DNA of 64,000 bases from assembly GCF_030823375.1 (NCBI RefSeq), contig NZ_JAUSXB010000001.1:3472001-3536000 (forward strand). The letters are read 5' to 3'. A model generated the notes under the pieces. The model saw only the letters and a program-made list of their open reading frames with translations, was not told the origin of the DNA and did not search any database. Position numbers and translations under genes: made by a program. How positions within the stretch are numbered: the stretch's first letter is position 1; every line of letters begins with the position of its first letter. This DNA comes from Pseudarthrobacter siccitolerans (GTDB taxonomy: Bacteria > Actinomycetota > Actinomycetes > Actinomycetales > Micrococcaceae). Positions 7,140 to 60,684 of the stretch are shown piece by piece.

Positions 7140-7748
7140 ATGGCCTGGAATACTGAACGAACCAAAGCGCTGCTGCTGGCTGCCGCCACGGAGGAATTCA
7201 GTGAAAAGGGCCTGGCCGGCGCGCGCGTGGACCGGATCGCAGCCGCCGCGGGCGTCAACAAGGAGCGCATCTACCAGTACTTCGGCAAGAAGGACGATCT
7301 GTTCGACGCCGTCCTGGCCGCGGAACTGGTGCGCGTCATGACCGAGGTCCCCATCGAGGGCAACGGCCCCGCGGCCGTGGGAGATTACGCCGCGAAGCTT
7401 TTTGACCGCCACACCAAGGACAGCGCCCTGGCCCGGCTGCTGTTCTGGGAAGGGCTGGAGCGCGGCCGCAACACCGTGGACCGGGCCACCCGGGCAGACC
7501 ACTGCGCCGCCAAGGTGGACCAGATGCTCCGGGTTCTGCCGGGCATCGACCGCACCGATGCAGCGGACCTGGTCCTCACTATCGTGACGCTCTGCGACGG
7601 CTGGACCGTCCTGCCGCAAATCGACGCACTCCTGGCCGGCGCCGCGCCGGACCGGCTGGAACGCCGCCGGGCCTTTATTGCCCGTACCGCCATGCTGACG
7701 GCCGAAGCCCTCCTGGCAGAAGCCCCCGCGGCTGCGGCCAGTCAGTAG
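7140..7748 (+). CDS. TetR/AcrR-family transcriptional regulator
   Basis: 202 residues. The N-terminal helix-turn-helix (about 10-55) reads AAATEEFSEKGLAGARVDRIA, then AGVNKERIYQYFGKKDDLF, the standard TetR recognition helix and YFxxKxxL end. The C-terminal ligand domain is not diagnostic. It is divergent from a two-TM protein with palindromes in between and convergent with the pyridoxal kinase gene (18 bp apart). Confidence 0.9.
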   Translation: MAWNTERTKALLLAAATEEFSEKGLAGARVDRIAAAAGVNKERIYQYFGKKDDLFDAVLAAELVRVMTEVPIEGNGPAAVGDYAAKLFDRHTKDSALARLLFWEGLERGRNTVDRATRADHCAAKVDQMLRVLPGIDRTDAADLVLTIVTLCDGWTVLPQIDALLAGAAPDRLERRRAFIARTAMLTAEALLAEAPAAAASQ

Positions 7749-7766
7749 GCGAATGCGGCCGACAGG

Positions 7767-8624: not shown

Positions 8625-8735
8625 GGCACCATCCTGCCATCCGGCGCCGGCCGCCCGCCTTGTGTGTCTGAACAGCGCCTTTCCCTGAACCCGTTCAATG
8701 CGACAACGGGGCCGGAATTCTTGCCCAAGGAGCCT

Positions 8736-9485
8736 TCAGGCCTTGAGTGTGGCGTCGAGCAGGGCCCGCAGCTCCCGGAAATGACGCTCCGTAGCCTCCG
8801 GATGGAAGGCTGAGGTGTCTGCCATCGAGTAGCCGTGGGATGCGCCGGGGTAGATCTCGTTCGATGCTTCAAGGCCCGCAGCCTGGAGCGCCTCACCCAG
8901 CCGGGCGACGGCGTCGGGGGCCATGCTCTGGTCATGGTCCGCGTGGCCGAACACAAACCGGGCGCGGGCGTTGCCCAGGGCCAGGTGGGGGCTGTCCGGG
9001 GCGTCCGTCGCCAGGCCGCCGCCATGGAAACCGCCACACGCCGCCACCACGTCCGGCCGTGCGGTGGCGGTACGCACCGCAAGCCTGGCTCCCATGCAGT
9101 AGCCGAAGGCACCGATGGGACCCGGCGCTGCGCCGTCGATCGCCCCAAGCGCCTTGACCCACGCATCGATGTCAGCCACGGCTTTGTCCGGAGTGAGGCG
9201 GCCCACCCGCGGGAACGCGGCCTTGCCGGCGGCCGCCCTGCCCTCCGCCGTGGCCATGTCCGCCGCAGGAGCGAGCTCGCCGGCCTTGCCTTCCCGGTAA
9301 AAGACGTTCGGGGCCAGGACAACGTAGCCCCAGTCGGCCACCCGCTGGGCCATGTCCTGGATGCGGGGGCGCAGGCCGAACGCGTCCATGTAGAGGATTA
9401 CGCCCGGAAAGGGGCCGGTGCCAGTGGACGGACGGGCCACCAGGGCTTCGGCGGTGCCTGCTGCGGCGGGGATTTCGATGAGCAT
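8736..9485 (-). CDS. Dienelactone hydrolase family alpha/beta hydrolase
   Basis: 249 residues with the DLH triad visible: nucleophile Cys130 in GYCMGAR (the cysteine form typical of dienelactone hydrolases), Asp in GHADHDQ around 183-185, and His217 in GASHGY. The N-terminal PGVILYMDAFGLRPRIQDMAQR segment is also family-typical. The natural substrate is unclear, because no chlorocatechol genes are near; many homologues act as general carboxyl esterases. Confidence 0.85.
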   Translation of the reverse strand: MLIEIPAAAGTAEALVARPSTGTGPFPGVILYMDAFGLRPRIQDMAQRVADWGYVVLAPNVFYREGKAGELAPAADMATAEGRAAAGKAAFPRVGRLTPDKAVADIDAWVKALGAIDGAAPGPIGAFGYCMGARLAVRTATARPDVVAACGGFHGGGLATDAPDSPHLALGNARARFVFGHADHDQSMAPDAVARLGEALQAAGLEASNEIYPGASHGYSMADTSAFHPEATERHFRELRALLDATLKA

Positions 9486-9521
9486 CCGCTCAGGATATCG
9501 GAACCGGCATGGGCGCCCTGC

Positions 9522-10862
9522 TCATGAGTAATACCGGCCCAGGGTCTCGGCCTTGAACTCGAAGAAGGTGCCGGCTTCGATGGCCAGCCGTGCATCGTCC
9601 ACCATCTTCACCACGAACCGCTCATTGTGGATGGAGATCAGCGTGGCGGAGACCATCTCCTTGGCCTTGAACAGGTGGTGGATGTACGCCCGCGAGTAAT
9701 GGGTGCACGCGTAGCAATCGCAGCCCTCCTGGAGCGGGCCGAAATCGCGCTTGTACTTGGCGCCCGAAAGGTTGAAGCGGCCCTGCGGCGTGTAGAACGC
9801 GGAGTTCCGGGCCACGCGGGTAGGTGAGACGCAGTCGAAAGTGTCTGCGCCGTTTTCGATGGCCGTGAAGATATCGTCCGGCTCGGAGATGCCCAGCAGA
9901 TGGCGCGGTTTGTCCTCCGGCAGTTCCTCGTTGCACCACCGGACGATCGTGCCCAGGTTCTCCTTCTCGAGGGCCCCGCCGATGCCGAAACCGTCAAATG
10001 GCATGGCGCCCAGATCCCGGCAGGCTTTCCGGCGCAGGTCCTCGTACTGGGCCCCCTGGATCACGCCGAACAGTGCCTGGTACGGCTTGCCCTCACGGGC
10101 CGAGGTCAGCCGGAAGTGCTCCTCGATGCAGCGCAGCGCCCACAGCCGCGTTCGCTCCAGCGATTCCTCCTGGTACCCGCGGGAGTTCTGCAGGGTGGTC
10201 AGCTCGTCGAAGGCGAACATGATGTCCGCGCCGATCTGGTGCTGGACCCGCATCGAGATCTCGGGGGAGAAGCGGTGCTTGTCACCGTTCAGGTGGCTCT
10301 TGAACCAGACGCCGTCGTCGTCGATATGGGCCAGGCGTTCCTTGCCGGGAGCTACGGCGTCATCGGGCCCGGAAGCGTCCACCGATTTCATGTCGATGAC
10401 TTTCTTGAACCCCGAGCCCAGGCTCATCACCTGGAATCCGCCGGAGTCCGTGAACGTGGGCCCGGACCAGTTCATGAACGCGCCGAGGCCGCCGGCTTCA
10501 TCGAGGATGTCCGCTCCCGGCTGCAGGTACAGGTGGTAGGCGTTGGCCAGCAGTGCCTGCGCGCCAAGGTCAGCCATCGATTCGGGCAGCACCGCCTTCA
10601 CCGTGGCCTTTGTTCCGACGGCGATGAACGCGGGCGTCCGGATTTCTCCGTGGGGCGTCGTGATGGTGCCGGTGCGGCCCAGGAATGCACCGCCGTTGGA
10701 CTCCAGTTGGGCAGCCGACGGCGGGCACGTTTCGGCAAGGCGGGAGCCTACTCGGAAGCCGAACTCGGACTGCCGGGAGAGCGCGCCAGGCAGCGCGGCT
10801 TCCCTGGCTGGGGCAGCCGCCGGGGCAGCGGGGGACGGAGCGGAAACAGGGTTGGCTGGCAC
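9522..10862 (-). CDS. tgt: Queuine/archaeosine-type tRNA-ribosyltransferase
   Basis: 446 residues. Tgt exchanges guanine for a 7-deazaguanine base at position 34 of GUN-anticodon tRNAs. Visible: TPAFIAVGTKATVK near the N-terminus, DSGGFQVMSLG (catalytic Asp region), GISEPDDIF, the second Asp in DTFDCVSPTRVAR, and the zinc site CDCYACTHYSRAYIHHLF. A 50-60 residue Ala/Pro-rich N-terminal extension follows the assigned GTG start at 10862, which has no clear ribosome binding site; a later start is possible. No queuosine synthesis genes are near, consistent with salvage of queuine or a precursor. Confidence 0.9.
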   Translation of the reverse strand: MPANPVSAPSPAAPAAAPAREAALPGALSRQSEFGFRVGSRLAETCPPSAAQLESNGGAFLGRTGTITTPHGEIRTPAFIAVGTKATVKAVLPESMADLGAQALLANAYHLYLQPGADILDEAGGLGAFMNWSGPTFTDSGGFQVMSLGSGFKKVIDMKSVDASGPDDAVAPGKERLAHIDDDGVWFKSHLNGDKHRFSPEISMRVQHQIGADIMFAFDELTTLQNSRGYQEESLERTRLWALRCIEEHFRLTSAREGKPYQALFGVIQGAQYEDLRRKACRDLGAMPFDGFGIGGALEKENLGTIVRWCNEELPEDKPRHLLGISEPDDIFTAIENGADTFDCVSPTRVARNSAFYTPQGRFNLSGAKYKRDFGPLQEGCDCYACTHYSRAYIHHLFKAKEMVSATLISIHNERFVVKMVDDARLAIEAGTFFEFKAETLGRYYS

Positions 10863-46784: not shown

Positions 46785-47864
46785 TCAAGCCGGATCATGT
46801 GTCCGCGGGCGTGATGCAGGCGCGGGCCCTGTGGACGCCCGGATGGTCAGGTGTGTGGGCATGACCGCAAGCTGGCGGCCGGAGCGGCCCGGAACGGGAT
46901 TCAGCTGGGAAAGCAGCATTGACACAGCCACCCGGCCTGCCTGTTCGATGGGACTGGCGATGGTGGTCAGCGGGGGATTGCAAAAGTCTGCGCCGAAGAT
47001 GTCATCAGATCCGATGATGCTGATGTCTTCGGGGACGCGGATACCCCGCTCGCGAAGCCGTTGGAGCATCCCGATCGCCAGCAGGTCATTGAACACAATG
47101 CACGCGGTGGCCCCGGTTCGCACCGCAGCATCTGCCGCCGCCGCACCGGACGTCGTCTTCGGAGTGAAGGGGCCGATGCGGTGCGTCTCCATGCCTCGAT
47201 GCGCGGACTCCTCCTCAAAGACGTTCCAACGCATCCGATTGGACCAGGACGTTGGCGGACCACTGACATAGCAAACCCGGTGGTGGCCCAGTGAGGCCAG
47301 GTGCTCCAGGGCCTGTACAACGGCCGACGGTGTGTCTATCACCACTGTGGGAGCGCTGGTGGACGCCCGGTTGATTGTCACCAGCGGCTGGGTCTCAGAC
47401 ACCTCGGTCAGTTGCTGGTCCGTCAGGCGGGAAGCTGCAAGGATAAAGCCGTCGGCAGAACGTCGCATCTTGTGAAGAGCTTCAAGCTCCATCTCGTTGG
47501 ACTCTTCCGTATCCACAAGGAGTTGTGTGTATCCCGCAGCCTTGAGCTGGTGCTGGGTGCCGCGGATGATGTCGAAGTAGAACGGGTTGGTGATGTCAGG
47601 CACGAGGACGGCGACCGCATTAGTGCGCCCTGAGCTGAGTCCCTGGGCCTGGGAGCTTGGCACGTAATTTAATTGTGCCGCTGCTTCTTCGATCCTTTCC
47701 CTGGTATGGCGGTTTACGCGGTCCGGTTTGGACAGTGCCCGGGAAACCGTCGACGTTGCTACCCCTGCGAGCTGGGCAACGTCCCGGATGGTGGGCACCT
47801 TTTCCTGGCCGGTGCGTCCAGGTGAATCCCGTGCCGCCCCCGATCCAGCTGTAGCCGAGGCCAT
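46785..47864 (-). CDS. LacI-family transcriptional regulator
   Basis: 359 residues. HTH VPTIRDVAQLAGVATSTVSRALSKPDRVNRHTRERI and hinge helix AAAQLNYVPSSQAQGL at about 23-80, then the periplasmic-binding-protein-like effector domain (NAVAVLVPDITNPFYFDIIRGTQ; PTVVIDTPSAVVQALEHL; AAIGMLQRLRERGIRVPEDISIIGSDD). Divergent from the hexuronate-type operon with two palindromes between, so it is the likely repressor and senses a sugar or sugar acid. Confidence 0.92.
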   Translation of the reverse strand: MASATAGSGAARDSPGRTGQEKVPTIRDVAQLAGVATSTVSRALSKPDRVNRHTRERIEEAAAQLNYVPSSQAQGLSSGRTNAVAVLVPDITNPFYFDIIRGTQHQLKAAGYTQLLVDTEESNEMELEALHKMRRSADGFILAASRLTDQQLTEVSETQPLVTINRASTSAPTVVIDTPSAVVQALEHLASLGHHRVCYVSGPPTSWSNRMRWNVFEEESAHRGMETHRIGPFTPKTTSGAAAADAAVRTGATACIVFNDLLAIGMLQRLRERGIRVPEDISIIGSDDIFGADFCNPPLTTIASPIEQAGRVAVSMLLSQLNPVPGRSGRQLAVMPTHLTIRASTGPAPASRPRTHDPA

Positions 47865-47984: not shown

Positions 47985-48071
47985 CTTGTTCCTAGACTGA
48001 GTCCCGAATCGCCTGCAGTGATATGCGCCACTTGACGTTGTGGCCATGTGGGTGTCCAAGAGGAGAAAACA

Positions 48072-49430
48072 ATGAGGTTTACATCGTCTTCAGGGCTCGC
48101 AGCAATCGTTACGGCTGCGGCATTGGCATTGACAGGCTGCGGTGGCGGCTCAGGAACCACTGGCACTGCCACAAACGCGGATGGGAAAGTGGACGGAACG
48201 GGCAAGACCCTGAACGTCCTCGTGAACGTGCTGAGCCAGTATCCCGAACAGCAGAAGCAGTGGCAGAGTGACATTGCCGCCAAGTTCAAGGCTGAAACCG
48301 GGGCCGACGTGAAGTTTGAAACCTTCGCGTCCGCCAACGATGAGCTCACCCGCATCCAGACCTCCGTAGTATCGGGCCAAGGCCCGGACGTCTACAGCCT
48401 CGGCACCACCTTTACCCCCACCGCCTATGCCACTAAGGCCTTTGTCACCCTTTCCGACGATGACTGGAAGGCTGTCGGCGGCAAAGACCGTTTCAACCCG
48501 GCCGCGCTGGGTATCTCCGGACCGGATAAGGATCACCAGGCCGGCATTCCCTTTGTCAGCCGTCCCTTCGTGATGGCCTATAACAAGGACCTGCTGGCAG
48601 CGGCCGGCATCGAGAAGCCCGCCACCAGCTGGGACGAGCTTGCCGAACAGGCCAAGAAAATGACCAAGGACGGCACCTTCGGCATCGCCACAGGCTACAA
48701 GGACAACTTCGACCCGTGGAAGTTCATCTGGGCCATGTCTGTCCAGGCCGGCAACCCCCTGGTGGACGGAAACAAGTTCAAGCTGGATGACCCCACCGTG
48801 AAGAAGGCCTACGAGACCTACTTCGGCTGGCTGACCGAAGACAAGGTGGTGGACCCGGCTTCGGTGGGCTGGAGCAACAGCAATGCCGTAGCAGCCTTCG
48901 CAAGCGGTAAGGCCGGCTACCTGATGATGACCACTTCCAGTTCCATTCCCACCCTGGACAAGTCGGAAGTGGCCGGCAAATACGAATACGCCCTGATGCC
49001 CACTATCGCCCCGGGTGAGACGAAGTCCAAGTCTGACGGCGATGCCGCAAGCATCCTCTCCGGCGACAACATCGTGGTTGCCGATTACTCAAAGCAAAAG
49101 GACCTCGCCTTCGCCTACATCAAGCTGATCACCTCCAAGGACGAGCAGCTGAACTACCAGAAGATTTTCGGCGACCTTCCCGCCAACGCAGAAGCTCTTG
49201 CAACTCTGACCGACCCGAAGCTCAAGCCGCTGGCCGAGGCTGCCGGGAAGTCCAAGGCGACGCCTTTCACCGGTGCATGGGGTGACATGCAACTTGGCCT
49301 CCTCAACGTCACGGTCCAGTCCGTTCCGGACCTGGCCGCCGGGAAGGTGGACGAAGCGGCCCTCGAGTCAAGGATCAAGGACTCACAGAACAAGGGCCAG
49401 GCCTCCCTGGACCGGGCCTCCAAGGGATAA
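48072..49430 (+). CDS. Sugar ABC transporter substrate-binding lipoprotein
   Basis: 452 residues from the ATG at 48072, with AGGAG upstream. Lipoprotein signal with Cys (LALTGC), then a family 1 (MalE/oligosaccharide) binding fold: LNVLVNVLSQYPEQQKQW, FETFASANDELTRIQTSVVSGQGPDVYSLGTTF, RPFVMAYNKDLLAAAGI, AAFASGKAGYLMMTT. First gene of a ten-gene operon. Binding proteins of this cluster usually take di- or oligosaccharides; in context, a uronic or aldonic acid-bearing saccharide is plausible. Confidence 0.9.
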   Translation: MRFTSSSGLAAIVTAAALALTGCGGGSGTTGTATNADGKVDGTGKTLNVLVNVLSQYPEQQKQWQSDIAAKFKAETGADVKFETFASANDELTRIQTSVVSGQGPDVYSLGTTFTPTAYATKAFVTLSDDDWKAVGGKDRFNPAALGISGPDKDHQAGIPFVSRPFVMAYNKDLLAAAGIEKPATSWDELAEQAKKMTKDGTFGIATGYKDNFDPWKFIWAMSVQAGNPLVDGNKFKLDDPTVKKAYETYFGWLTEDKVVDPASVGWSNSNAVAAFASGKAGYLMMTTSSSIPTLDKSEVAGKYEYALMPTIAPGETKSKSDGDAASILSGDNIVVADYSKQKDLAFAYIKLITSKDEQLNYQKIFGDLPANAEALATLTDPKLKPLAEAAGKSKATPFTGAWGDMQLGLLNVTVQSVPDLAAGKVDEAALESRIKDSQNKGQASLDRASKG

Positions 49431-49435
49431 GTCCC

Positions 49436-50449
49436 ATGTCAACTGACGCCTCCAACGAAGTCCGGCTTGCGGCGGAGTCCGCCGCAAGCCGGGCGGCCCG
49501 CTCGGCCGCTGACGTTTCCAGCCAGGAGCCCAACGGGCAGAGCAGCCCGCGCCGCAAAGGCCTGAGCGAACGCAACCGGCCACTCTGGATGCTGATCCCT
49601 GGCGGGGTCCTGATGATCATCATCATCGTGGTGCCCCTCCTGCTGGGCATCTTCATGTCCGCCCTCAACCTGGACCAGTACACGTTGCGCAAATGGGTCA
49701 GCGCGCCGTTCATCGGAGTTGAAAACTTCGTTGAAGCAATGACCAGTTCTCCGCTCCTGCACTCTGTCTGGCTGAGTGTCAGCTACTCACTGCTCGCTAT
49801 GGTGGTCACGCTTCCGCTGGGCATCGCTGCGGCTGTAGCAACCCAGAACGCCTTCAAGGGACGGGCCGTCATCAGGTCAATTTTCCTGATTCCGTACGTC
49901 CTGCCTTCGTTCGTTGTGGCAACGGTGTGGCGCACCATGTTGCAGCCTGACGGCATCGTGGACAGGGCCCTCGGAACGGTGGGGATCGACGTCGGACTCT
50001 GGCTGAACGGGCCACAGACATTCTGGACCCTGGTACTGGTCCAGATCTGGGCATCGTGGCCGTTCATTTACCTGCTGGCGCTCTCAGGACTCCAGGCCGT
50101 GGACCATGAGGTGCACGAGGCCTCGGCTCTAGACGGCGCCCTGTGGTGGAACAAGCTCCGGTATGTCGTGTTCCCCTACCTGAAGGGGCCCCTGTCGCTC
50201 GCCTTCCTGATTGGAATGCTGCACCACATCAACAACTTCACGCTGCCATTCGTCCTGTTCGGTGTCCCGGCCCCGGCTGACGTGGAAGTCCTGCCCATCC
50301 TTACGTATGTCACCAGTTTCCAGAGCTTCCGGTTCGGCTTGAGCGCGGCCATGGCCTTCATCTCCCTGGTACTGATTGCCATCCCGCTGTTCGTCTACCT
50401 CCGTGCTGTCAAACTCGACGACGCAGAAACACCAGGAGCCAAGAAATGA
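49436..50449 (+). CDS. ABC sugar permease (MalF-type)
   Basis: 337 residues. A 40-residue cytoplasmic tail, then six TM helices. The EAA loop is visible (HEVHEASALDGALWWNKLRYVVFPYLKGPL). It pairs with the MalG-type permease downstream, whose start overlaps its stop. It starts 5 bp after the binding protein stop. Confidence 0.9.
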   Translation: MSTDASNEVRLAAESAASRAARSAADVSSQEPNGQSSPRRKGLSERNRPLWMLIPGGVLMIIIIVVPLLLGIFMSALNLDQYTLRKWVSAPFIGVENFVEAMTSSPLLHSVWLSVSYSLLAMVVTLPLGIAAAVATQNAFKGRAVIRSIFLIPYVLPSFVVATVWRTMLQPDGIVDRALGTVGIDVGLWLNGPQTFWTLVLVQIWASWPFIYLLALSGLQAVDHEVHEASALDGALWWNKLRYVVFPYLKGPLSLAFLIGMLHHINNFTLPFVLFGVPAPADVEVLPILTYVTSFQSFRFGLSAAMAFISLVLIAIPLFVYLRAVKLDDAETPGAKK

Positions 50450-51369
50450 GCACCTCGACAGCCACCCGGCGGAGTACGGCAACCGCGGACCTTCCCCGTC
50501 CGGGTTCAAGGCGCCAGCACGAAGTCCTGCGGTTGCTCCCGGGACCCTTGCTTGCCATCATCCTGGTCTTCCTGGGCGCCCTGGTCCTGATTCCCGTCCT
50601 GTACATTTTCCTGGCGTCGGTGAACTCGGACATCGGCGTCGCCAACGGCGAATTCTGGCCGTCAAGCTTCACCCTTGAGAACTACTCGAAGATCTGGACC
50701 AGCGTCGGCCTTGCTACCGGGCTGGCCAACAGCGTTTTGGTGGCAGGTACGACGGCGGTTGTCTCGGCAGCCCTGTCGGTTTCGACCGCGTTCGTCCTGG
50801 TCCGCTACAGTTTCCGGGGCCGGCTCACTATCCTGCGCGGGCTCCTTGCACTGCAGTCAGTGCCAGGGACCCTGATGGTCCTTCCCGTTTTCGTGCTGTT
50901 CTCGTCGGCGTCAACATATCTGGGCATCCAGGTCATCGGGACGCAGTGGGGACTCTTCGTGACCTACCTGACGTTCGCCATGCCGTTCTCCACCTGGGTG
51001 ATGGTCACCTACCTGCGCGGGCTTCCCAAGGAACTTGAAGAAGCGGCCAAGATCGACGGCGCCAGCAACCTCGGTGTCCTGTTCAAGATCGTCCTGCCCC
51101 TGAGCTGGCCCGGCATCGTGGTCTCCGGCATCTTCGCTTTCCTCCTGGGATGGAACGACGTCCTGTTTGCCTCCGTCATGACCCGGCCGGAAAGCCAGAC
51201 CGCCGCCGTAGCCCTGCAAATCTTCGGTGCCTCCCAGGAGGGCGGCGCCATCCCGTTCTACGGCCAGATGATGGCGTCAGCACTGGTATGCGCCGCTCCC
51301 GTGGTCATTCTTTACCTGATTTTCCAGCGTTATCTAGTTGGCGGGCTCACCGCCGGAGGAGTTAAATAA
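50446..51369 (+). CDS. ABC sugar permease (MalG-type)
   Basis: 307 residues, six TM helices; EAA loop KELEEAAKIDGASNLGVLFKIVLPLSWPGI. Overlaps the partner permease by 4 bp (ATGA). No ATPase gene lies in the operon, so a shared MsiK-like ATPase elsewhere probably energises the importer. Confidence 0.9.
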   Translation: MSTSTATRRSTATADLPRPGSRRQHEVLRLLPGPLLAIILVFLGALVLIPVLYIFLASVNSDIGVANGEFWPSSFTLENYSKIWTSVGLATGLANSVLVAGTTAVVSAALSVSTAFVLVRYSFRGRLTILRGLLALQSVPGTLMVLPVFVLFSSASTYLGIQVIGTQWGLFVTYLTFAMPFSTWVMVTYLRGLPKELEEAAKIDGASNLGVLFKIVLPLSWPGIVVSGIFAFLLGWNDVLFASVMTRPESQTAAVALQIFGASQEGGAIPFYGQMMASALVCAAPVVILYLIFQRYLVGGLTAGGVK

Positions 51370-51371
51370 CC

Positions 51372-52220
51372 ATGGTTTCAGCCACCCAAACCTCGTGGGC
51401 CCTGTCCGGGTTCGGCGACGAGATCGACGACGACCCTGCCGTGCAGATCGCCGTCCTGCAGGCGCTCGGCGCGAGCTACATTGAGGTGCGCAGCGCGTGG
51501 GGCACGAACATCGTGGACCTGTCCGAAGACCAGCTCGCCGCCCTGGCCAAGTTGCTCGACGAGAAAGCCATGCGGGTTTCCGCGATCGCTTCGCCGATCG
51601 GGAAGGTGGATGTCAGCCTTCCCGTGGAGCATGAAGTGGAGCGCCTGCGCCGTGCGGTCAATGCCGCCAAGGTCCTGGATGCAAAATACATCCGCATTTT
51701 CTCCTTCTACTACGGCGAATCCGTTCCTGTGGACAGCATCCGCGATGCAGTCATCGAACGTATGCGCGCGCTCGCCGCCGTCGCCGAACAGGAAGGTGTG
51801 GTTCTGCTGCACGAAAACGAAAAGGATATCTTCGGGGATGTCCCGGACCGTGTGCTGGACATCATCGAAAGCGTCAATTCGCCGGCCTTGAAAGTGGCAT
51901 GGGACGCAGCCAACTTCGTGCAGGTGGGCGTCAAGCCGTTTGATGAGGCCTATGAAAAGCTGCGCCCGCACCTGGAGTACCTGCAGGTCAAGGACGCGCT
52001 CTTTTCCAATGGACATGTCGTTCCCGCAGGGGAGGGCGACGGCGATGTCCAGCGGACCGTGGAAGCGCTCAAGGCGGACGGCTTCACCGGCTTCGCCTCC
52101 CTGGAGCCGCACCTCGCGGGAGCCCACGGCCTCGGCGGATTCTCCGGCCCCACAGCGTTCGGCATCGCTGCCCGCGCATTTGCAAAAGTCACATCAGAAG
52201 CAGGAGTCCAGACAGTATGA
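51372..52220 (+). CDS. Sugar phosphate isomerase/epimerase (TIM barrel)
   Basis: 282 residues of the xylose isomerase-like TIM-barrel family. N-terminal LSGFGDEIDDDPAVQIAVLQALGASYIEVRSAW, middle VVLLHENEKDIFGDVPDRVLDI and LKVAWDAANFVQVGVKPFD, HLEYLQVKDALF, FTGFASLEPHLAG. The Glu/Asp/His residues that bind a divalent metal in this family are present (ENEK, WDAAN, VKD, SLEPH). Specific reaction not deducible. Overlaps the Gfo/Idh gene by 4 bp. Confidence 0.82.
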   Translation: MVSATQTSWALSGFGDEIDDDPAVQIAVLQALGASYIEVRSAWGTNIVDLSEDQLAALAKLLDEKAMRVSAIASPIGKVDVSLPVEHEVERLRRAVNAAKVLDAKYIRIFSFYYGESVPVDSIRDAVIERMRALAAVAEQEGVVLLHENEKDIFGDVPDRVLDIIESVNSPALKVAWDAANFVQVGVKPFDEAYEKLRPHLEYLQVKDALFSNGHVVPAGEGDGDVQRTVEALKADGFTGFASLEPHLAGAHGLGGFSGPTAFGIAARAFAKVTSEAGVQTV

Positions 52221-53383
52221 GTGAGATATTGAAGGTCGCCATCACGGGTTGTGGCGTCATTGGCCGAACCCATGCGGCCGCCCTGCATGAGTTTCCTGGA
52301 GCCACCATCGTCGCGCTCGTGGACGCGATCCCGGATGCCGCTGAATCCCTTGCTGACTTCATCCAAAAGAGCGGCCGCCCGAGGCCCTCGGTGCATGCGT
52401 CCCTGCAAGAGGCTTTTGCTGCCACCGACATTGACCTGGTGGCTTTGGCCACCCCCAGCGGATTGCACATCCAGCAGGGTCTTGAAGTCCTTGCGGCCGG
52501 CAAGCACGTCGTCATCGAAAAGCCGCTGGATGTAGACCTGAGCCGGGCACAGGAAATTGAGGCTGCCGCAAACGAGGCCGCGAGCCGGGGAATCGTCGCC
52601 TCGGTGATCAGCCAGCACCGGTTTGACCAAGCCAGCGTTGCTGTGGCAGACGCTGTCGCCAAAGGACGGTTTGGGAGGCTGACCTCGGCCATAGCCTCGG
52701 TCGCGTGGTGGCGCGGCCAGGCGTACTACGATTCCGGTGACTGGCGCGGCACGTGGTCCATGGACGGCGGCGGAGCCCTGATGAACCAGGGCGTCCACAC
52801 GGTTGACCTGCTGCTGTGGTTCATGGGCCGGCCGGTGGAGATCCACGCACACACCGCGCGTTTGGCACACGAACGCATCGAGGTGGAGGACACCGCCGTG
52901 GCTACCGTAACCTTCGAGAACGGCGGCATGGCCGTGCTGCACGCCACGACAGCCGCCTACCCCGGCCTGACCGTTCGGGTCCAGCTGATGGGGTCGGAAG
53001 GCTCCGCAGTGGTGGACAACGATCAGCTGCACTATTTCCACACCAGGGACGCCGGCGGCGTTTCCGCAGACATGGGGCTGCAGGGCGGGGGAAACCAGGC
53101 CTCGGAAGAACTGGCAAAGTACCCCGCAGAGGATTACGAGGCCAAAGATCCCACCGTGTATCCCGCGGGGCATATACGCCAGTACCGCGACATCATCACC
53201 GCCATCACCGAAGGCCGCCAGCCCGGAGTCACCGTCAGCGACGCCGTCAATGCCCTCGCCACCGTGCGGGCGGTCTACGTGTCAGCGACGCTCAACCAGG
53301 CAGTACTTTTCGACGATGTCCTGGCCGGCAAGTACAACGACCTCGAAGTCCGCACGGGCAACACTGCGGCAGAAAGCGCCTGA
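52217..53383 (+). CDS. Gfo/Idh/MocA-family oxidoreductase
   Basis: 388 residues. NAD(P) Rossmann motif at the N-terminus (LKVAITGCGVIGRTHAAAL), the EKPLD segment (VVIEKPLDVDLSRAQEI) with the conserved Lys, and the C-terminal beta-sheet domain with GGGALMNQGVHTVDLLLWFMG, containing the His/Asp catalytic region. These enzymes oxidise hydroxyls of sugars or inositols. Framed by two TIM-barrel proteins in the same operon. Confidence 0.85.
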   Translation: MSEILKVAITGCGVIGRTHAAALHEFPGATIVALVDAIPDAAESLADFIQKSGRPRPSVHASLQEAFAATDIDLVALATPSGLHIQQGLEVLAAGKHVVIEKPLDVDLSRAQEIEAAANEAASRGIVASVISQHRFDQASVAVADAVAKGRFGRLTSAIASVAWWRGQAYYDSGDWRGTWSMDGGGALMNQGVHTVDLLLWFMGRPVEIHAHTARLAHERIEVEDTAVATVTFENGGMAVLHATTAAYPGLTVRVQLMGSEGSAVVDNDQLHYFHTRDAGGVSADMGLQGGGNQASEELAKYPAEDYEAKDPTVYPAGHIRQYRDIITAITEGRQPGVTVSDAVNALATVRAVYVSATLNQAVLFDDVLAGKYNDLEVRTGNTAAESA

Positions 53384-53387
53384 AGCC

Positions 53388-54293
53388 ATGAAATTCTCAG
53401 TTTTCACAGCCTCCACACCTGACTGGACTCCCGAAGAAGCGGTCAGCCACCTTTCGGCCCAGGGCTGGGACGGAATAGAGTGGCGGATCACGGACCAGGC
53501 CGAGGCGGCTGAGGCCGGTTTCTGGGCCGGAAACAAGGCGACCGTCCCCCTGACAGGCCTTGAAGACAACCTTCAGCGGGTAGCCACTATCACCCGCGAC
53601 GCCGGCTTGGAGTTCTCCGGTCTGGGCGGCTATGCGCGGTGCGACAACCATGCCGACGTCGATCGCATGTTGGCCGCAACGGCAGCACTGGGAGCGGGCC
53701 AGGTACGTGTCACCACCCTTCCGCTGGGGACGGCGGAATGGGGAGGCGAAAAGCCCAGCGGGATTGCCTATCCTGTCCTGTTCGAGGCGGCCCGACGTGA
53801 CTTCGAATGGGTGGCTGAACGCGCCGCCCACCATGGCGTCAAAGCGCTGGTGGAACTGCACCACCGCACCATCACTGCGTCTGCTTCTTCTGCCCGGCGC
53901 CTGGTGGAAGGCCTGGACCCCAAGCACGTCGGGGTCATCCACGACCTCGGCAATCTGCTGATCGAGGGCCAGGAAGACTACCTTCCGGCCTTCGAACTTC
54001 TGGGGGAGTACCTGGCCCACATCCACGTCAAGAACGCCGTGTGGACACGTCAGGATGCGACTGACGAATCCGGCGCCGCAGTGTTCCGGAACGAGTGGGC
54101 GCCGCTGCAATCCGGACAGGGGAGCGTCCTGGAATACTTCAAGGCGCTGGCTGCCCATGGCTACGACGGCTGGGTCACAGTGGAAGACTTTTCCACAGAG
54201 CTTCCCTTGGCCGAACGGACGGCCGGCAATCTTGATTACCTGCGGCGTACGGCGGCTCTCGCCGGGCTCACCGCAGGCGCCGGAGCGCGTTGA
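53388..54293 (+). CDS. Sugar phosphate isomerase/epimerase (TIM barrel)
   Basis: 301 residues from an ATG at 53388 (longer frames cross the upstream gene). Second xylose isomerase-like barrel of the operon, not close to the first: MKFSVFTASTPDWTPEEAVSHLSAQGWDGIEWRI, ALVELHHRTITASASSARRLVEGL, VGVIHDLGNLLIEG, LAHIHVKNAVW, YDGWVTVEDFSTELPLAER. Metal ligands visible as VELHH, HDLGN, HVKN and VEDF. Reaction not deducible. Confidence 0.8.
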   Translation: MKFSVFTASTPDWTPEEAVSHLSAQGWDGIEWRITDQAEAAEAGFWAGNKATVPLTGLEDNLQRVATITRDAGLEFSGLGGYARCDNHADVDRMLAATAALGAGQVRVTTLPLGTAEWGGEKPSGIAYPVLFEAARRDFEWVAERAAHHGVKALVELHHRTITASASSARRLVEGLDPKHVGVIHDLGNLLIEGQEDYLPAFELLGEYLAHIHVKNAVWTRQDATDESGAAVFRNEWAPLQSGQGSVLEYFKALAAHGYDGWVTVEDFSTELPLAERTAGNLDYLRRTAALAGLTAGAGAR

Positions 54294-54297
54294 GACC

Positions 54298-55698
54298 ATG
54301 GCGCAGTCGATAGCAGCACACCCCGACCGGCTCCTGCCGGCAGAACCTGGCGTGCGGGAGATAGCCCGTTCCCTTTACAACCTCGTAGCCGGCCTGCCCA
54401 TCATCTCTCCGCATGGTCACGTGGATGCAGGGGTCATCGAAAACAACCTGCCGTTTCCCGACCCGGCCGCGCTCCTGGTCACACCGGACCACTACGTGAC
54501 CCGGTTGATCCACGCCGGCGGTGTCCCGATGGAGGAGTTGGGGCTCGGCGATTCGCCGGCCGGCTCGCGCCAGGTCTGGCACAACTTTTGTGCCGCATGG
54601 CCTGCCTTTGAGGGCACAGCCTCCGGGTACTGGATACGGCAGGAATTCGAGCATGTGTTCGGGCTTCACGAAGAGCCCACGGCGGAGAACGCGGACAGGA
54701 TCTACGACGCAATCTCGGCCAGGCTCGCCGAGCCCGGCTTCCGGCCACGGCAACTGTTCAAGGAATTCAACATCGAGGTGCTGGCCACCACGGACGATCC
54801 GCTGGACGCCCTGGACAGCCACGCAGCGCTGGCGCAGGACCCGGCCTTCGCCGGCCGCGTCCTGCCCACCTTCCGGCCGGACAAGTACCTCGACATTGCC
54901 CATCCAGCCTGGCTGGACAATGTGGAACGCCTCATCGCCGCCGGTTCGAGTGGTTCGGGATACGCCGGTTACATCAGTGCACTGGAGGCCCGGCGGCGCC
55001 ATTTCGTAGCAAACGGCGCTGTGTCTGCCGACCATGGGGTCCGCTCGCCTGCCACGCTGAAGCTGGATCAGTCAGACGCAGAGCGGCTCTTCGACCGTGC
55101 CCGCGCGGGCAAAGCCACCCCGGAGGACCGTGAAGCCTTCGAAGCCCACATGATGTACCAGATGGCCCGGATGTCAGTGGAGGACGGGTTGGTCATGACG
55201 ATCCACCCCGGTTCGTACCGAAATCATCACGGTCCCACTTTCGAGGCTTTTGGGGCGGATACCGGCCACGACATCCCCTTCGCCGTGAACTACACGGAGG
55301 CCATCCGGCCGCTGCTGCAGGACTTCGGCACGGCCAAGGATTTCCACCTGGTGCTGTTCACGCTGGACGAAACGGTGTTCTCGCGCGAACTGGCGCCTTT
55401 GGCCGGCTTCTACCCGTCGGTCTACATAGGCGCCCCCTGGTGGTTCCTGGATGCGCCGGACGCGATGCTCCGTTTCCGTTCCGCAGTCACGGAAACGGCC
55501 GGCTTCTCACGGTCCTCGGGATTCATCGATGACACCCGGGCGTTCTGCTCCATCCCCGCACGGCACGATACGTCGCGCCGGATCGAGTCAGCCTTCCTGG
55601 CACGACTGGTAGCAGAACACCGGATCAGCGAAGAACGGGCGCACGAACTGATCGTGGACATAGTGGATTCTTCCCCGAGAAGGGTCTTTAAGCTGTGA
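54298..55698 (+). CDS. uxaC: Glucuronate isomerase
   Basis: 466 residues from an ATG at 54298, 4 bp after the previous stop. Isomerises D-glucuronate to D-fructuronate (and galacturonate to tagaturonate). Family blocks: ISPHGHVDAGVI (metal His pair), FNIEVLATTDDPLDALDSH, RVLPTFRPDKYLDIAHPAWLD, MTIHPGSYRNHH, FAVNYTEAIRPLLQDFG, IGAPWWFLDAPDAMLRFR. Full length. It defines the operon as hexuronate catabolic. Confidence 0.93.
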   Translation: MAQSIAAHPDRLLPAEPGVREIARSLYNLVAGLPIISPHGHVDAGVIENNLPFPDPAALLVTPDHYVTRLIHAGGVPMEELGLGDSPAGSRQVWHNFCAAWPAFEGTASGYWIRQEFEHVFGLHEEPTAENADRIYDAISARLAEPGFRPRQLFKEFNIEVLATTDDPLDALDSHAALAQDPAFAGRVLPTFRPDKYLDIAHPAWLDNVERLIAAGSSGSGYAGYISALEARRRHFVANGAVSADHGVRSPATLKLDQSDAERLFDRARAGKATPEDREAFEAHMMYQMARMSVEDGLVMTIHPGSYRNHHGPTFEAFGADTGHDIPFAVNYTEAIRPLLQDFGTAKDFHLVLFTLDETVFSRELAPLAGFYPSVYIGAPWWFLDAPDAMLRFRSAVTETAGFSRSSGFIDDTRAFCSIPARHDTSRRIESAFLARLVAEHRISEERAHELIVDIVDSSPRRVFKL

Positions 55699-57134
55699 GC
55701 GCCAACAAGGTACCCGGGCTGAACCGGGCCCAGGTCGGCCTGCCAAAGGCTCCGGTTCGGATCGTCCACCTTGGACTTGGAGCATTCCACCGGTCACACG
55801 AAGCCTGGTATACACAACACGCCGGCGACGGCGGGGAGTGGGGAATCGCCGCTTTCACGGGGAGGCGGCCGGATGCAGCCCTGGCGCTGGCCGCCCAGGA
55901 CGGTCTGTTCACTCTCATTGAGCGCTCCGGCGACGGGGACGCTTTCGAAGTCATTGGAAGCATTGTCGAAGCGGTTGACGGCGCCGACGTCCGGCGCCTG
56001 CAGGAACTTGTTTCAGCCCCGGAAACCGTGATGGTCACCCTGACCATCACGGAAGCGGCTTACGGGCTGGACTCCACCGGTTCCTTTGACGCATCAGGCT
56101 TTGCCGGCGACCTTGCGGTCCTGGCAAGCGCAGCCGGTGCCGGCGGAACGCTGACGACGCCGCTGGGCCGGCTCGTTTCTGCCCTCGCCGCCCGCAGGGA
56201 GTCCGCTGCCGGACCGATCGCCGTCGTTAGTTGCGACAACCTGTCCGGTAACGGAGAGGTTGCCCGGCGCGCCATCACAGGACTGGCGGAAGCTTGGGAC
56301 GCGGGGCTTGCACGATGGATCGAGAAGAACGTCAGCTTCGTCAGCACGTCCGTGGACCGGATCACCCCGCGGACCACCGAAGCCGACATCGCCGAGGTGG
56401 AGGAGTCCTGCGGATACCGTGACAGCTCGCCCGTGGTGGCAGAACCCTTCCGTGACTGGGTCATCAGTGGGAATTTCCCGAAGGGCAGGCCCCGCTGGGA
56501 GGACGCCGGCGCCGTAGTGGTGGACGACCTCGAACCGTATGAGAACCGCAAGCTGTGGTTGCTCAACGGCGCCCATTCGCTTCTCGCCTACGCGGGCCAG
56601 TTGCGGGGACACACCACCGTGGCGCAGGCGTTGGAGGATCCGTCCTGCAGGAATGCTGTGGAGGCCTTCTGGGGCGAAGCCGCGGAGCACCTGCACGGAC
56701 AGGACCTGCGCATCCCCGAATACCTGGAAGCACTCCGCGCCCGTTTTGCCAACGGACGGATCGCTCACAATTTGTCCCAGATCGCCGCGGATGGTTCCAC
56801 GAAGCTCCGGATGAGGGCCGTGCCGGTCCTCGCAGCTGAAAGGTCACAGGGCCGGTCTGGTGCCGGCAGTTCCCTGATGCTTGCCGCGTGGATCGACTAC
56901 GTGGCCGAACAGAAAGAACTTAAGGATCCGAGGTCCGATTCAATCGCCGCTGCGAATCGGGCACAAGGAGCCGAAAGGATTGCCGCACTCCTCAATCTTG
57001 TCAGCGAGGGGCTTGGGGAAGATCCCCGGATCGTCGCCCTCGTCGCCCGCCAAAGCAGTACCTTCGCCAAAGACTCAACCACCGCCGCCGCCACGGCCGG
57101 ACCCGCCCACTTGGTTCCTGAAAGGAACAGCTGA
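55695..57134 (+). CDS. uxuB: Fructuronate reductase / mannitol dehydrogenase family
   Basis: 479 residues, GTG start overlapping uxaC as GTGA. Polyol dehydrogenase fold with an N-terminal NAD domain ([20 protein letters not shown]) and catalytic Lys in [24 protein letters not shown], the K-x-x-x-x-N-x-x-H pattern. [17 protein letters not shown] is also typical. Between glucuronate isomerase and mannonate dehydratase it must reduce fructuronate to mannonate (inference from context, well supported). Confidence 0.88.
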
Positions 57135-57139: not shown

Positions 57140-58369
57140 ATGAAGATTGTCGCAGCAGACGTTTTTGTCACCAGTCCCTCCCGGAATTTCGTGACGCTCC
57201 GGATCACTACCGAGGATGGTGTGACCGGTATTGGTGACGCCACCCTGAACGGGCGTGAGCTGGCTGTGGCCGCGTATTTGAAGGAGCACGTGGCGCAGTT
57301 GCTGATCGGCAAGGACCCGCACCGGATTGAGGACACGTGGCAGTTCCTGTACCGGTCCTCGTACTGGCGGCGTGGCCCGGTGACGATGGCGGCGATTGCC
57401 GCGGTGGACATGGCGTTGTGGGATATCAAGGGCAAGATGGCGGGCATGCCGGTGTACCAGCTGTTGGGCGGGGCGTCCCGGAACGGGTTGCGCGCGTACG
57501 GGCACGCCTCAGGCGCGGACCTGCCGTCACTGTTTGACTCCGTGCGGGGGCACCTGGAGCTCGGGTACAAGTCGATCCGGATCCAGACCGCCGTCCCCGG
57601 GATCAAGGCCGTGTACGGGGTGGCCGCGCAGGCCCAGGCGTCGGGGGAGCGGTACGACTACGAGCCCGCCGGGCGCGGCGCATTCCCGGTGGAGGAGGAC
57701 TGGGACACCCGCGCCTACCTGCGTCACTTGCCGACGGTGTTTGAGGCGGTCCGGAACGAGTTCGGCCCGGAGATCCCGCTGCTGCACGACGGGCACCACC
57801 GCATGACGCCCATCCAGGCCGCCAAGCTGGGCAAAGCCTTGGAACCGTATGACCTGTTCTGGCTGGAGGACTGCACCCCGGCCGAAAACCAGGAGGGCCT
57901 GCGCCTGGTCCGCCAGCACACCACGACCCCGCTGGCCATCGGGGAGATCTTCAACACCGTGTACGACTACCAGACCCTGATCAAGGAACAGCTGATCGAC
58001 TACGTCCGGGCAGCGTCCACGCACTTCGGCGGAATCAGCCCGTTGAAGAAGGTCATGGACTTCGCCGCGCAGTACCAGATCAAGTCCGGCTTCCACGGCC
58101 CCACCGACATCTCGCCCGTGGGCTTCGCCGCGCAACTGCATGTGGGCCTGGCCATCCATAACTACGGCATCCAGGAATACATGCAGCACTCGGACAAGAC
58201 CAACGAGGTCTTCCACCAGTCCATGACCTTCGTGGACGGCTACCTGCACCCGGGCAACGAACCGGGCATCGGCGTCGAATTCAACGCAGAAGCCGCAGCC
58301 GCCTACCCCTACCAGCAGGCCTACCTGCCCTACAACCGCCTCATCGACGGAACGGTCCACGACTGGTGA
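57140..58369 (+). CDS. manD: D-mannonate dehydratase (ManD, enolase superfamily)
   Basis: 409 residues. Enolase-type: N-terminal capping domain and barrel with [36 protein letters not shown] (metal Asp/Glu), then IGEIFN with the third metal Glu, [11 protein letters not shown], and [11 protein letters not shown]. Early [16 protein letters not shown] and [15 protein letters not shown] region match ManD. It dehydrates D-mannonate to 2-keto-3-deoxygluconate. This replaces the unrelated UxuA. Its first half uses more G-ending codons than its neighbours. Confidence 0.93.
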
Positions 58370-60684
58370 GCACTTCCAAGACAGCAGCAACCGGCAAGCT
58401 CCGCATCGTCGTGATGGGAGTGTCCGGCTGCGGCAAGACCACCATCGGCGACCTTGTGGCACGGGAGCTCGGCGTCCCGTTCCTCGACGGCGACTCCCTC
58501 CACCCGGTAGAAAACGTCGCCAAAATGGCGGCGGGCACACCCCTGACGGATGAAGACCGCTGGCCCTGGCTCGCCACAGTCGGCGCCCAGCTGGCCAACG
58601 CGGGCGACGGCGGCATAGTCCTCGCCTGCTCAGCCCTGCGCCGCAGCTACCGCGACGCCATCCGCGCCCAGGCCCCGGACACCATCTTCCTGCACCTGCA
58701 CGGCACCAGAGAGGTCCTGCGGGCGCGTACTGAAGGGCGCACCGGCCACTTCATGCCGCCTGCCCTCCTCGAATCCCAGCTCGCCACGCTGGAACCGCTG
58801 GACGCAAGTGAAACCGGCGTTATCGTCGACATTTCTGCCCCGGTCAGGCAGGTGGTCCGGGAGGCACTCGCCGGGATTGCCGCCGTCGGGGGTCCTGCTG
58901 ACGTTTCCGGCACTGCCGGTGCCGCCAGCACCCGGCCGCGGCAGTTCGACGTCGACCTTCAGGCCGCGCCGTTCAATCTCGACGGCGACGCTGTCACCTG
59001 GGTGGAATCCACCATCGCCGGCATGACCCTCGAGGAAAAGATCGGCCAGCTGTTCATCAACCACAACAACGACTACTCCCCGGAGTACCTCGATGCTGTG
59101 CTGGAGGACTTCCACGTGGGCGGCATGCGGTACCGGCCCGGGCCCTCGGCCGCGGTGCAGGAGCATATCCGCTACGCGCAGTCCAAGACCCGGATCCCGC
59201 TGCTGGTGGCTTCCAACCCGGAAATGGGGGGAGCCGGAAGCTGCGACGACGGAACGTTTGTGTCCACACACCTGCAGGCCGGCTCGCATCCGGACAAGTC
59301 CATCGCCCGGCAGATGGGGCAGGTAGCCGGGGTGGAAACCGCCGCGCTGGGCTGCAACTGGGCCTTCGCCCCGATCGTGGACATCCACTACAACTGGCGG
59401 AACACGGTCATCTCCACCCGCGCCTTCGGCAACACCCCGGAAATTGTGGTGGAGCGGGCCAAGGAATACTTCGAAGGCATCAGCGAATCACCCACGGTAT
59501 GCGCCATGAAGCACTTCCCCGGCGACGGCGTGGACGAGCGTGACCAGCACGTGGTCACTTCCTACAACACCTTCACCTATGAGGAATGGAACCGGACCTA
59601 CGGGCACGTGTACCGCGAGATGATCGGCCACGGCGTGCAGTCCATCATGGTGGGGCACATCGGGGCGCCTGACCTGTCCCGGCACTTCCGGCCCGGCCTG
59701 GCGGACAGGGAGATCCTTCCCGCGACGCTGGCGCCCGAACTGCTGCAGGACCTGCTCCGCGGCGAACTCGGCTTCAACGGGCTGGTGCTCACCGACGCGT
59801 CGCAGATGGTGGGCCTCACCCAGGCCAGAAAGCGCAAGGACCTGGTGCCGGCCACCATCGCGGCCGGCTGTGACATGTTCCTGTTCTTCCGCAACCCCGC
59901 GGAGGACTTCGGGTACATGCTGGACGGCTACAAGTCCGGCGTCATCACCGAACAGCGCCTGCACGACGCACTGCGCAGGATCCTTGGGCTGAAGGCTTCC
60001 CTGGGGCTGCACCGTAAGTCCGCGGACCAGCTGGTTCCGCCTGCTGAGGCGCTCGCCGTGATCGGCAGCGACGCGCACCGGGCTATTGCGGCGCAGATCG
60101 CGGACAAGACCGTCACCTTGGTCAAGGACACTGCGAACAACCTCCCCATCACTCCACAGATGCATCCCCGGATCCGCCTGTACGGGATTTCCGGCGGTTC
60201 AGATTTCACCCGCGCCGACCCGCTGGCCTACCTGGAGACTGTCAAGGAAGAGCTCGAAGCCGCCGGCTTTGAAGTACACGTTTTCAAGACTGCGGAGCAG
60301 CGCGAAGCGGCGGGCGAGACCGGCATGAACTTCATGCGGGTCCTGTCGGAGGAAGCCACCGGCGATTACGCAGCGAAGTACGACGCCGCGTTTGTGTTCG
60401 CCAACGTAAAGGGCTTTGCCCAGGAGGCAGCCATCCGGATCAAGTGGTCCTCGCCAATGGCCGCGGAGATCCCGTGGTACGTCACTGAAGTGCCTACGGT
60501 GTTTGTTTCGCTCAACCAGCCCAACCACCTGATTGATGTGCCCATGGTCAAGACGGCGATCCATGCGCACGCCGGGTCCCGGGAAGCCATCCGGGCCACC
60601 GTTGCCAAGATCCAGGGCAAGTCTGAGTTCCAGGGCACGTTCAACGACAACGTGTTCTGCGGTTCGTTCGACACCCGGCTCTAG
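58366..60684 (+). CDS. Gluconokinase-GH3 glycosidase fusion protein
   Basis: 772 residues in one frame, GTG start overlapping manD as GTGA. Residues 1-175 are a complete gluconokinase: P-loop GVSGCGKT (18-25), [58 protein letters not shown] Gly/Ala/Ser/Thr linker (about 180-200) leads to a GH3 barrel (about 205-560) with [18 protein letters not shown] from 382 followed by RDQH (acid/base Asp-His area, as in NagZ-like GH3), and the TDASQM nucleophile at Asp477. A C-terminal alpha/beta domain (about 575-772) completes GH3. There is no signal peptide, so it acts in the cytoplasm. Expected: release of a sugar acid from an imported glycoside and phosphorylation of gluconate to 6-phosphogluconate. 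The fusion is unusual; family calls are firm, joint role is inferred. Confidence 0.88.

Follow-up and report, generated by a model that had tools for sequence, protein, structure and literature searches.

What could a cell do with a single protein in which a gluconokinase-type kinase (GntK) is joined to an enzyme of glycoside hydrolase family 3 (GH3)? The question is raised by the last gene of an operon in Pseudarthrobacter siccitolerans, which lies within a stretch of 64,000 nucleotides (RefSeq assembly GCF_030823375.1, contig NZ_JAUSXB010000001.1, positions 3,472,001 to 3,536,000 of the forward strand; hereafter the window). An original prediction, made from the sequence, had described the product as one uninterrupted chain of a novel architecture and had taken it for a glycosidase that releases gluconate from an imported glycoside and a kinase that traps it as 6-phosphogluconate. 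The observation is confirmed and its interpretation partly supported: the fusion is real and conserved, and it sits in a glucuronate operon. In the reading favoured here, to which a rough probability of 0.45 is given, it is a bifunctional cytoplasmic enzyme whose GH3 half phosphorolyses a glucuronate-containing beta-glycoside and whose kinase half phosphorylates an aldonate at a later step of the pathway. The joined frame, the intact motifs and family membership of both halves, the operon and the conservation are observed; phosphorolysis, the substrates of the two halves and the reason for their fusion are inferred.

A conserved fusion at the end of a glucuronate operon

The 772-residue frame reads through without a stop from a GTG start codon that overlaps the stop codon of the preceding gene, encoding a D-mannonate dehydratase (ManD), by four bases (GTGA). 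Profile searches (hmmscan) identify a gluconokinase (TIGR01313) across residues 14-169, at 181.8 bits against a cut-off of 113.75, and Glyco_hydro_3 (PF00933) across residues 221-541, at 188.3 bits against a cut-off of 27; the motifs named in the original prediction are all found in the frame, namely the P-loop, KHFPGDG (from residue 382) and TDASQM (from residue 476). An AlphaFold2 model built on a 35-sequence alignment (mean pLDDT 88.3, pTM 0.72) consists of two confident parts with a low-confidence linker at residues 177-191 between them. Both the GntK-type kinase and the GH3 enzyme are complete, with a disordered linker between them, and the stretch of residues 166-215 contains just one in-frame start codon, the GTG of residue 213, which already belongs to the GH3 half. 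As had been predicted, a signal peptide is not apparent on reading the sequence by eye, because the P-loop already starts at residue 18, and the fusion is apparently a cytoplasmic two-domain protein.

An artefact, whether through sequencing error or through a stop or frameshift at the linker, was considered and rejected. The two halves share one reading frame at 31 of 31 loci examined, across a linker that varies from almost none to ~35 residues, and no unfused copy was found among these 31 loci of the Arthrobacter group. Both Pfam domains are present in all 120 listed homologues (of 2849 matches; 754-786 aa), whose names place the fusion in Arthrobacter and Pseudarthrobacter, and the fusion occurs in 25 of 37 genomes of the host genus, its own genome included. 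Because the halves are joined in all of these, chance and sequencing error are excluded. Loss of catalytic residues was also looked for: the window kinase keeps all 34 positions that are invariant in 57 GntKs, and the putative GH3 dyad and nucleophile are invariant in 107 of 107 family sequences. Outside the genus, no GntK was seen near the GH3 gene in 20 neighbourhoods of GH3 relatives from other genera, which cover 20 of 24 such relatives (G392, G245, G348 and G063 are left out). No description of a GntK-GH3 architecture was found among the listed matches of searches in open-access papers; as far as these show the architecture is new, as had been claimed, and both of its component families are known.

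Directly upstream, genes for a glucuronate isomerase (UxaC), a fructuronate reductase-like protein of the UxuB family and ManD mark the operon, by homology, as a glucuronate pathway. Such enzymes carry glucuronate through fructuronate and mannonate to 2-keto-3-deoxygluconate. In some genomes of the genus a GPH permease lies between UxuB and ManD, its copy at L083 scoring over the cut-off for a glucuronide transporter. The predicted import of a sugar acid glycoside by the same operon therefore stands as to its sugar-acid theme and its importer genes, and is not supported as to gluconate, since UxaC, the UxuB-like reductase and ManD belong to the glucuronate pathway.

The GH3 half and its phosphoryl-handling relatives

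The best match of the GH3 half among PDB sequences is BglX (BglP), a metagenomic GH3 beta-glucoside phosphorylase (5VQD/5VQE), at 398 bits across residues 198-772, followed by YbbD/NagZ of Bacillus subtilis at 138 bits; Foldseek likewise ranks BglX first (5vqe, TM 0.92 by target, 36% identity). GH3 phosphorylases are described, in the available passages of PMC8950772, as using a His-Asp dyad instead of Glu, as retaining the beta configuration and as forming beta-sugar 1-phosphates. The GH3 half shows both sequence features of BglX/Nag3-type phosphorylases, the Asp-His dyad and full-length similarity, and nine of its residues (Asp393, His395, Asp477, Lys382, His383, Arg352, Arg392, His431 and Arg490) are invariant in all 107 family sequences. 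BglX shares its dyad, nucleophile, Arg392 and Arg490; the two arginines align with Val and Gln of B. subtilis NagZ and are candidate phosphate ligands. BglX differs from the fusion in having no kinase domain, in carrying Met at position 255 (Arg in the fusion) and Pro at position 344 (Trp in the fusion), and in belonging to another clade.

The genes that accompany GH3 relatives elsewhere also point to a sugar phosphate product. Of the 20 neighbourhoods of relatives without a GntK, 8 encode in one frame a beta-phosphoglucomutase-like HAD protein and the GH3 as a single chain, all of one family of the order (f9) and ~790-800 aa long (L069, L071-L076 and L078); a beta-phosphoglucomutase-like gene stands directly beside the GH3 gene in two more (L068, 444 bits; L070, 124 bits) and ~3 kb away in one (L077). 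The HAD protein of L068 passes the TIGR01990 cut-off (207 against 189.4 bits). What a retaining beta-glucoside phosphorylase should release is precisely the substrate of beta-phosphoglucomutase. The fused chains resemble the window fusion in that a phosphoryl-handling domain at the N-terminus precedes a GH3 of the same family, and differ in that this domain is a HAD domain instead of a P-loop kinase and that their GH3 belongs to the BglX clade, not to the clade with uronate genes. To call the GH3 half a glycosidase, as the original prediction had done, fits poorly both with its nearest relative in sequence and fold and with these partners of its family.

The two clades are separated in a tree of the 107 sequences (a quick FastTree, with tool warnings of long branches and of unusual composition in the beta-phosphoglucomutase rows) with an SH-like support of 100, one holding BglX and the beta-phosphoglucomutase-linked proteins and the other those with uronate genes, those with a new HAD family and the GntK fusions. 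Position 255 is Met in 13 of 13 members of the former; all 93 members counted in the latter have Arg there, as does the protein of L080, outside this count. At position 344, Trp is present in all 93 of the uronate clade and in 3 of 13 of the BglX clade. The GH3 half, with Arg255, thus lies outside the clade coupled to beta-phosphoglucomutase. In the model, the positive charge of Arg255 at the active-site face would suit a carboxylate in the donor site.

What accompanies the uronate clade was surveyed in a scan of named genomes, which gave at least 79 loci, ranked by closeness to the GH3 of locus L063 (46% identical to that of the window). Within 6 kb of the GH3 gene in the 79 listed loci are a separate HAD family (55), GPH permease (37), UxuA (34), Eda (14) and beta-phosphoglucomutase (1), and in 48 of them the HAD gene is on the same strand at no more than 200 bp from the GH3 gene. 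In the family of G144 (Actinomycetaceae, from near-identical loci) the HAD is present in 25 of 200 genomes, exactly the 25 that bear the GH3. This HAD family carries the motif VDSDGCAMDTMxxKH (for example at L063, 10735-11637), has intact frames in 52 of the 79 loci and contains all four HAD motifs (DSDG, S, K and GDxxGD). Generic phosphatase models match weakly, in up to 13 of 33 members, and beta-phosphoglucomutase models in none of the 33; because fold matches are moderate and of both kinds (HAD phosphatases and beta-phosphoglucomutases alike, TM 0.20-0.62 by target, among the 50 matches listed), its assignment as a phosphatase is a family-level guess. It would suit a phosphatase for a sugar 1-phosphate that is not isomerisable to a 6-phosphate, such as glucuronate 1-phosphate.

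The same observations bear on a distinctly unlikely alternative, in which the GH3 half is a phosphorylase that holds glucose in its -1 site and converts glucosyl-glucuronate to beta-glucose 1-phosphate, with glucuronate as the acceptor. BglX itself acts on beta-glucosides (passages of PMC8950772), and glucuronate-acceptor phosphorylases have been published in GH94 (3-O-beta-glucosyl-glucuronide; passages of PMC11322510) and GH130 (mannosyl-glucuronic acid; passages of PMC8950772). The alternative sits badly with the switch from Met to Arg255 at the active-site face of the barrel, which splits the clades, with a HAD partner that matches phosphatase models, if weakly, and beta-phosphoglucomutase models in no member, and with the 59 genomes of relatives, none of which holds a beta-phosphoglucomutase over cut-off.

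Under the favoured reading, the GH3 half would use phosphate to cleave an imported beta-glycoside containing glucuronic acid, with retention of configuration, Asp477 serving as the catalytic nucleophile and His395-Asp393 as acid/base, and would give the aglycone and a sugar 1-phosphate, most simply beta-glucuronate 1-phosphate. UxaC and the UxuB-like reductase would then convert glucuronate to mannonate, from which ManD would form 2-keto-3-deoxygluconate, and the kinase half would phosphorylate mannonate or its C2 epimer gluconate, providing a second exit to the pentose phosphate route beside ManD. A bolder version of this scheme is possible if rather doubtful: that the GH3 half and its whole clade are retaining beta-glucuronide phosphorylases releasing beta-glucuronate 1-phosphate, from which many bacteria recover glucuronate by means of a dedicated HAD phosphatase, and that in the HAD-less Arthrobacter and its kin a GntK-type half has taken the place of the HAD in the chain. 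That the kinase half transfers the phosphate of glucuronate 1-phosphate to ADP, recovering ATP, is scarcely credible. A GH3 phosphorylase with glucuronate as donor was not found among the listed matches in open-access papers.

Several findings weigh against phosphorolysis of a glucuronide. The Asp-His dyad also occurs in GH3 hydrolases. A uronate enzyme lies within 6 kb in just 36-40 of the 79 listed loci (strict or loose cut), 12 of the 79 show neither HAD, uronate gene nor GPH permease, and the uronate link was measured mainly on the loci nearest the L063 GH3, at 46% identity to that of the window. Beta-phosphoglucomutase over cut-off is found in 0 of 59 genomes of relatives, with weaker HAD matches in all 59, and the HAD partner is absent from all 37 genus genomes; G315 (73%) and G349 (62%), the unfused relatives that stand nearest, have none within ~8 kb either. 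A genomic enzyme for the sugar 1-phosphate is a supporting and not a strictly defining trait of such phosphorylases. Another enzyme would have to handle the sugar phosphate, or the Arthrobacter enzyme is now hydrolytic, or the kinase half is involved.

The second of these would make the GH3 half a plain beta-glucuronidase or other hydrolase that frees glucuronate with no sugar phosphate, the kinase half acting as in the favoured reading. Such a hydrolase is unlikely, if still a serious contender: it would explain the genus lacking a known enzyme for the sugar 1-phosphate, it is at home in a uronate operon, the best NCBIfam name of the GH3 half is that of a hydrolase (NF003740, beta-N-acetylhexosaminidase NagZ, far under its cut-off at 107 of 207 bits), and glucuronidases are said, in the available passages of a review (PMC10112845), to occur in GH3 among other families. 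It leaves to be explained that the nearest solved relative is by a wide margin a phosphorylase and that GH3 relatives are paired with or fused to phosphoryl-handling HAD enzymes.

The kinase half and its link to mannonate dehydratase

A solved gluconokinase, 3t61, aligns across nearly the whole kinase half (181 bits), and the half resembles GntK/IdnK gluconokinases (3T61, 1KNQ) in this near full-length match and in the motif positions kept. It differs from these normally single-domain enzymes in its link to ManD and its fusion to a GH3 enzyme. A second operon of the same genome (L081) ends in ManD followed by an unfused GntK 82% identical to the kinase half, and ManD-GntK pairs without a GH3 recur in the genus at L087 and L090 as well, while L089 keeps just the end of ManD before its GntK; at the level of genomes, G010 and G008 have ManD-GntK without a GH3, and G002 has a GntK after the end of a ManD gene. 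A survey of the order, restricted to the 30 best of the ManD matches found in 93 of 297 genomes and to ~4.2 kb pieces around ManD, places GntK next to ManD in 16 of the 30 loci, and in 11 of the 23 from outside the genus. Because the same kinase follows ManD where there is no GH3, its job would be independent of the GH3 product; gene order groups the kinase half with ManD, encoded just upstream of it.

As to what it phosphorylates, the 34 invariant positions occur alike in GntKs that are fused, linked to ManD or neither. This speaks for an ordinary aldonate as substrate; mannonate or gluconate appears likeliest and 2-keto-3-deoxygluconate second. A precedent is offered by Lactobacillus suebicus, whose uronate route, in the available passages of PMC6978723, likewise has UxaC, UxuB and abundant GntK, and whose extracts phosphorylate mannonate, linking the uronate isomerase route to 6-phosphogluconate; it differs in that those passages report no UxuA protein detected, leave the gene for the mannonate kinase unestablished and do not speak of a GH3. 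It tells against this part of the favoured reading that its substrate is drawn from gene order and from this one paper on another organism, and that at L226 and L229 both ManD and GntK are accompanied by Eda and a PfkB kinase.

A kinase for 2-keto-3-deoxygluconate, replacing the PfkB-type KdgK after ManD, was at first favoured for a GntK in this position and is now held improbable. It would fit a kinase gene placed directly after ManD with a 4-base overlap, and the ~4.2 kb ManD pieces, in which 14 of 16 loci with GntK have no PfkB gene and three loci with PfkB have no GntK. The reading was lowered because the host genome has PfkB kinases near Eda-like genes elsewhere (best NCBIfam names 2-keto-3-deoxygluconate kinase or 5-dehydro-2-deoxygluconokinase, below cut-off), because both kinases occur together in L226 and L229, because genomes G004 and G030 carry the fusion with no Eda match, and because clear marks are missing from the GntKs: beside the 34 shared positions, residue 160 is the sole ManD-linked mark at the threshold used, with the lineages pooled, so that marks of one lineage would escape. 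In G004 and in G030, the latter genome 92% complete, the search for Eda (TIGR01182) was made at E 0.001, and 2-keto-3-deoxygluconate may leave by another way there.

The model of the original prediction, in which gluconate is split off a gluconyl glycoside by a hydrolytic GH3 half and passes, perhaps through channelling, to the kinase half to be trapped as 6-phosphogluconate, has become very unlikely. The kinase half does score over the gluconokinase cut-off with its motifs intact, and the closest unfused GH3 gene is followed immediately, on the same strand, by a gene for 6-phosphogluconate dehydrogenase (L061, 8257-9726). Against this stand a glucuronate operon, a kinase that tracks ManD and not the GH3, and GH3 relatives that go with phosphoryl enzymes and uronate genes.

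Why then are the halves joined? The fusion unites the first step of the proposed pathway with a late one, and would thereby keep both at the same level; that it acts as a channel is improbable. A partial parallel is AgaSK of Ruminococcus gnavus, in which a glycosidase and a carbohydrate kinase likewise form one chain; in the available passages of PMC10112845 the kinase is reported to be largely independent of its glycoside hydrolase domain. AgaSK differs in that its glycosidase is a GH36 alpha-galactosidase and comes first, and that its sucrose kinase can use the product of its own glycosidase half (same passages).

The fusion could also lack functional meaning, a GH3 gene having landed behind GntK and the stop codon having been lost between halves that work independently. 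The unconstrained length and sequence of the linker, and the separate state of the same genes in G315, would accord with such an accident. So would the history of the kinase halves. A tree of 31 fused kinase halves and 26 other GntKs splits the former into two lineages, with 24 and 7 members, apart from other gluconokinases; each lineage also holds two unfused ManD-linked GntKs (support 100/99 and 84/92). In the second lineage the kinase is 54-60% identical to that of the window and the GH3 half 88-89% identical, from which it follows that the kinase was exchanged or that the fusion arose twice; L019 and L036, which combine a first-lineage kinase with a junction resembling that of the second lineage, point towards a swap. 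That no unfused copy is found among the 31 loci of the group, and that the fusion persists in 25 of 37 genomes and through kinase exchange or a second fusion, makes an accident of this kind decidedly unlikely.

Should the GH3 half be a phosphorylase, many genes that now go under the name beta-N-acetylhexosaminidase, fusion copies included, would be wrongly described both in name and in energetics. A GH3 clade tied to the HAD family would mean a phosphate-based opening of glucuronides beside the known hydrolases, gut- and animal-associated bacteria included, with relevance to the microbial deconjugation of glucuronides. The family of the GH3 half should be tested for phosphorolysis of glucuronides, and the fusion offers one clonable protein in which both this reaction and GntK-type action on mannonate can be assayed.

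Gene order, origin and minor observations

The state that may have preceded the fusion is seen in G315, where the GH3 gene adjoins TIM-barrel and Gfo/Idh genes (L061) and an operon LacI-UxaC-UxuB-GPH-ManD-GntK begins ~9 kb from it, its unfused GntK lying ~17 kb away (L239). In the Arthrobacter group the GH3 sits behind GntK and is joined to it. The features of the window operon are collected in Table 1.

Table 1. Genes of the operon and parts of the fusion protein (positions in the window; residues numbered in the fusion)
Feature	Position	Strand	Basis
LacI-type regulator, divergent from operon	46785..47864	-	Open reading frame, named by eye; homologues flank related operons
Sugar ABC transporter substrate-binding protein	48048..49430	+	PF01547, 113 bits
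ABC permease 1	49436..50449	+	PF00528
ABC permease 2	50446..51369	+	PF00528
TIM-barrel sugar isomerase/epimerase-like protein 1	51372..52220	+	PF01261
Gfo/Idh/MocA oxidoreductase	52217..53383	+	PF01408, PF22725
TIM-barrel sugar isomerase/epimerase-like protein 2	53391..54293	+	PF01261
Glucuronate isomerase UxaC	54292..55698	+	NF002794, 560 bits, over cut-off 387
Fructuronate reductase-like, UxuB family	55695..57134	+	NF011611, 248 bits, below cut-off 603; PF01232, PF08125
D-mannonate dehydratase ManD	57140..58369	+	NF043051, 684 bits, over cut-off 550
GntK-GH3 fusion protein, 772 aa	58366..60684	+	Single open frame, GTG start, profile matches to both halves
Kinase half, residues 13-175	58402..58890	+	TIGR01313; 3t61 gluconokinase, 181 bits; 34 invariant GntK positions
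P-loop GVSGCGKTT, residues 18-26	58417-58443	+	Within kinase half
Linker, residues 176-195	58891..58950	+	Low pLDDT at 177-191; varies in length and sequence among species
GH3 half, residues 196-772, barrel and C-terminal domain	58951..60681	+	PF00933; 5vqd BglX; Foldseek 5vqe
Arg255, clade-specific, end of barrel strand 2 (253-255 in model)	59128..59130	+	Arg/Met clade split
Asp393-Gln-His395, putative Asp-His acid/base dyad	59542..59550	+	By homology; invariant in 107/107; role per passages of PMC8950772
Asp477 (TDASQM), putative nucleophile	59794..59796	+	By homology; invariant in 107/107

The TIM-barrel and Gfo/Idh genes upstream of UxaC (51372-54293) resemble the levoglucosan set LgdA-LgdB1-LgdB2-LgdC in comprising a Gfo/Idh protein and two isomerase-like proteins, and differ from it in having a single Gfo/Idh-type gene where that set has LgdA plus LgdC; levoglucosan is opened by the Lgd enzymes through oxidation, elimination, hydration and reduction (available passages of PMC7676230). 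From this likeness, the gene set may form a second glycoside-opening route within the operon. A homologue of TIM-barrel protein 1 adjoins the unfused GH3 in L061 and lies ~5 kb from the GH3 in L065.

Three ManD copies in the host genome (that of the window, L081 at 8572-9801 and L105 at 7418-8647) are 96-99% identical and a fourth is 59% identical, and the operon neighbours of ManD diverge more between the window and L081 (UxaC 80%, UxuB 62% identity); recent conversion or strong constraint could account for the near-identical copies.

Two leads were set aside. The locus of the glucuronidase H11G11-BG was considered because the motif FGDFGND of its transporter C7D2 is also found in the GPH permease of L063; the available passages of PMC4732671 do not place BG in GH3, and it was not used as evidence. 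A glucuronidase of Lactobacillus brevis, at first taken for a GH3 enzyme, was dropped, as the paper passages name GH2 or GH30.

A table in the available part of PMC8171050 lists, for Arthrobacter sp. PAMC25564, a 2313-bp GH3 gene at a distance of ~3 kb from one for a GH2 beta-glucuronidase; the length of this GH3 gene would suit the fusion. Finally, two Streptococcus loci carry a second GH3 gene of the same family right behind the first (L157, 7819-9486; L160, 7802-9514).

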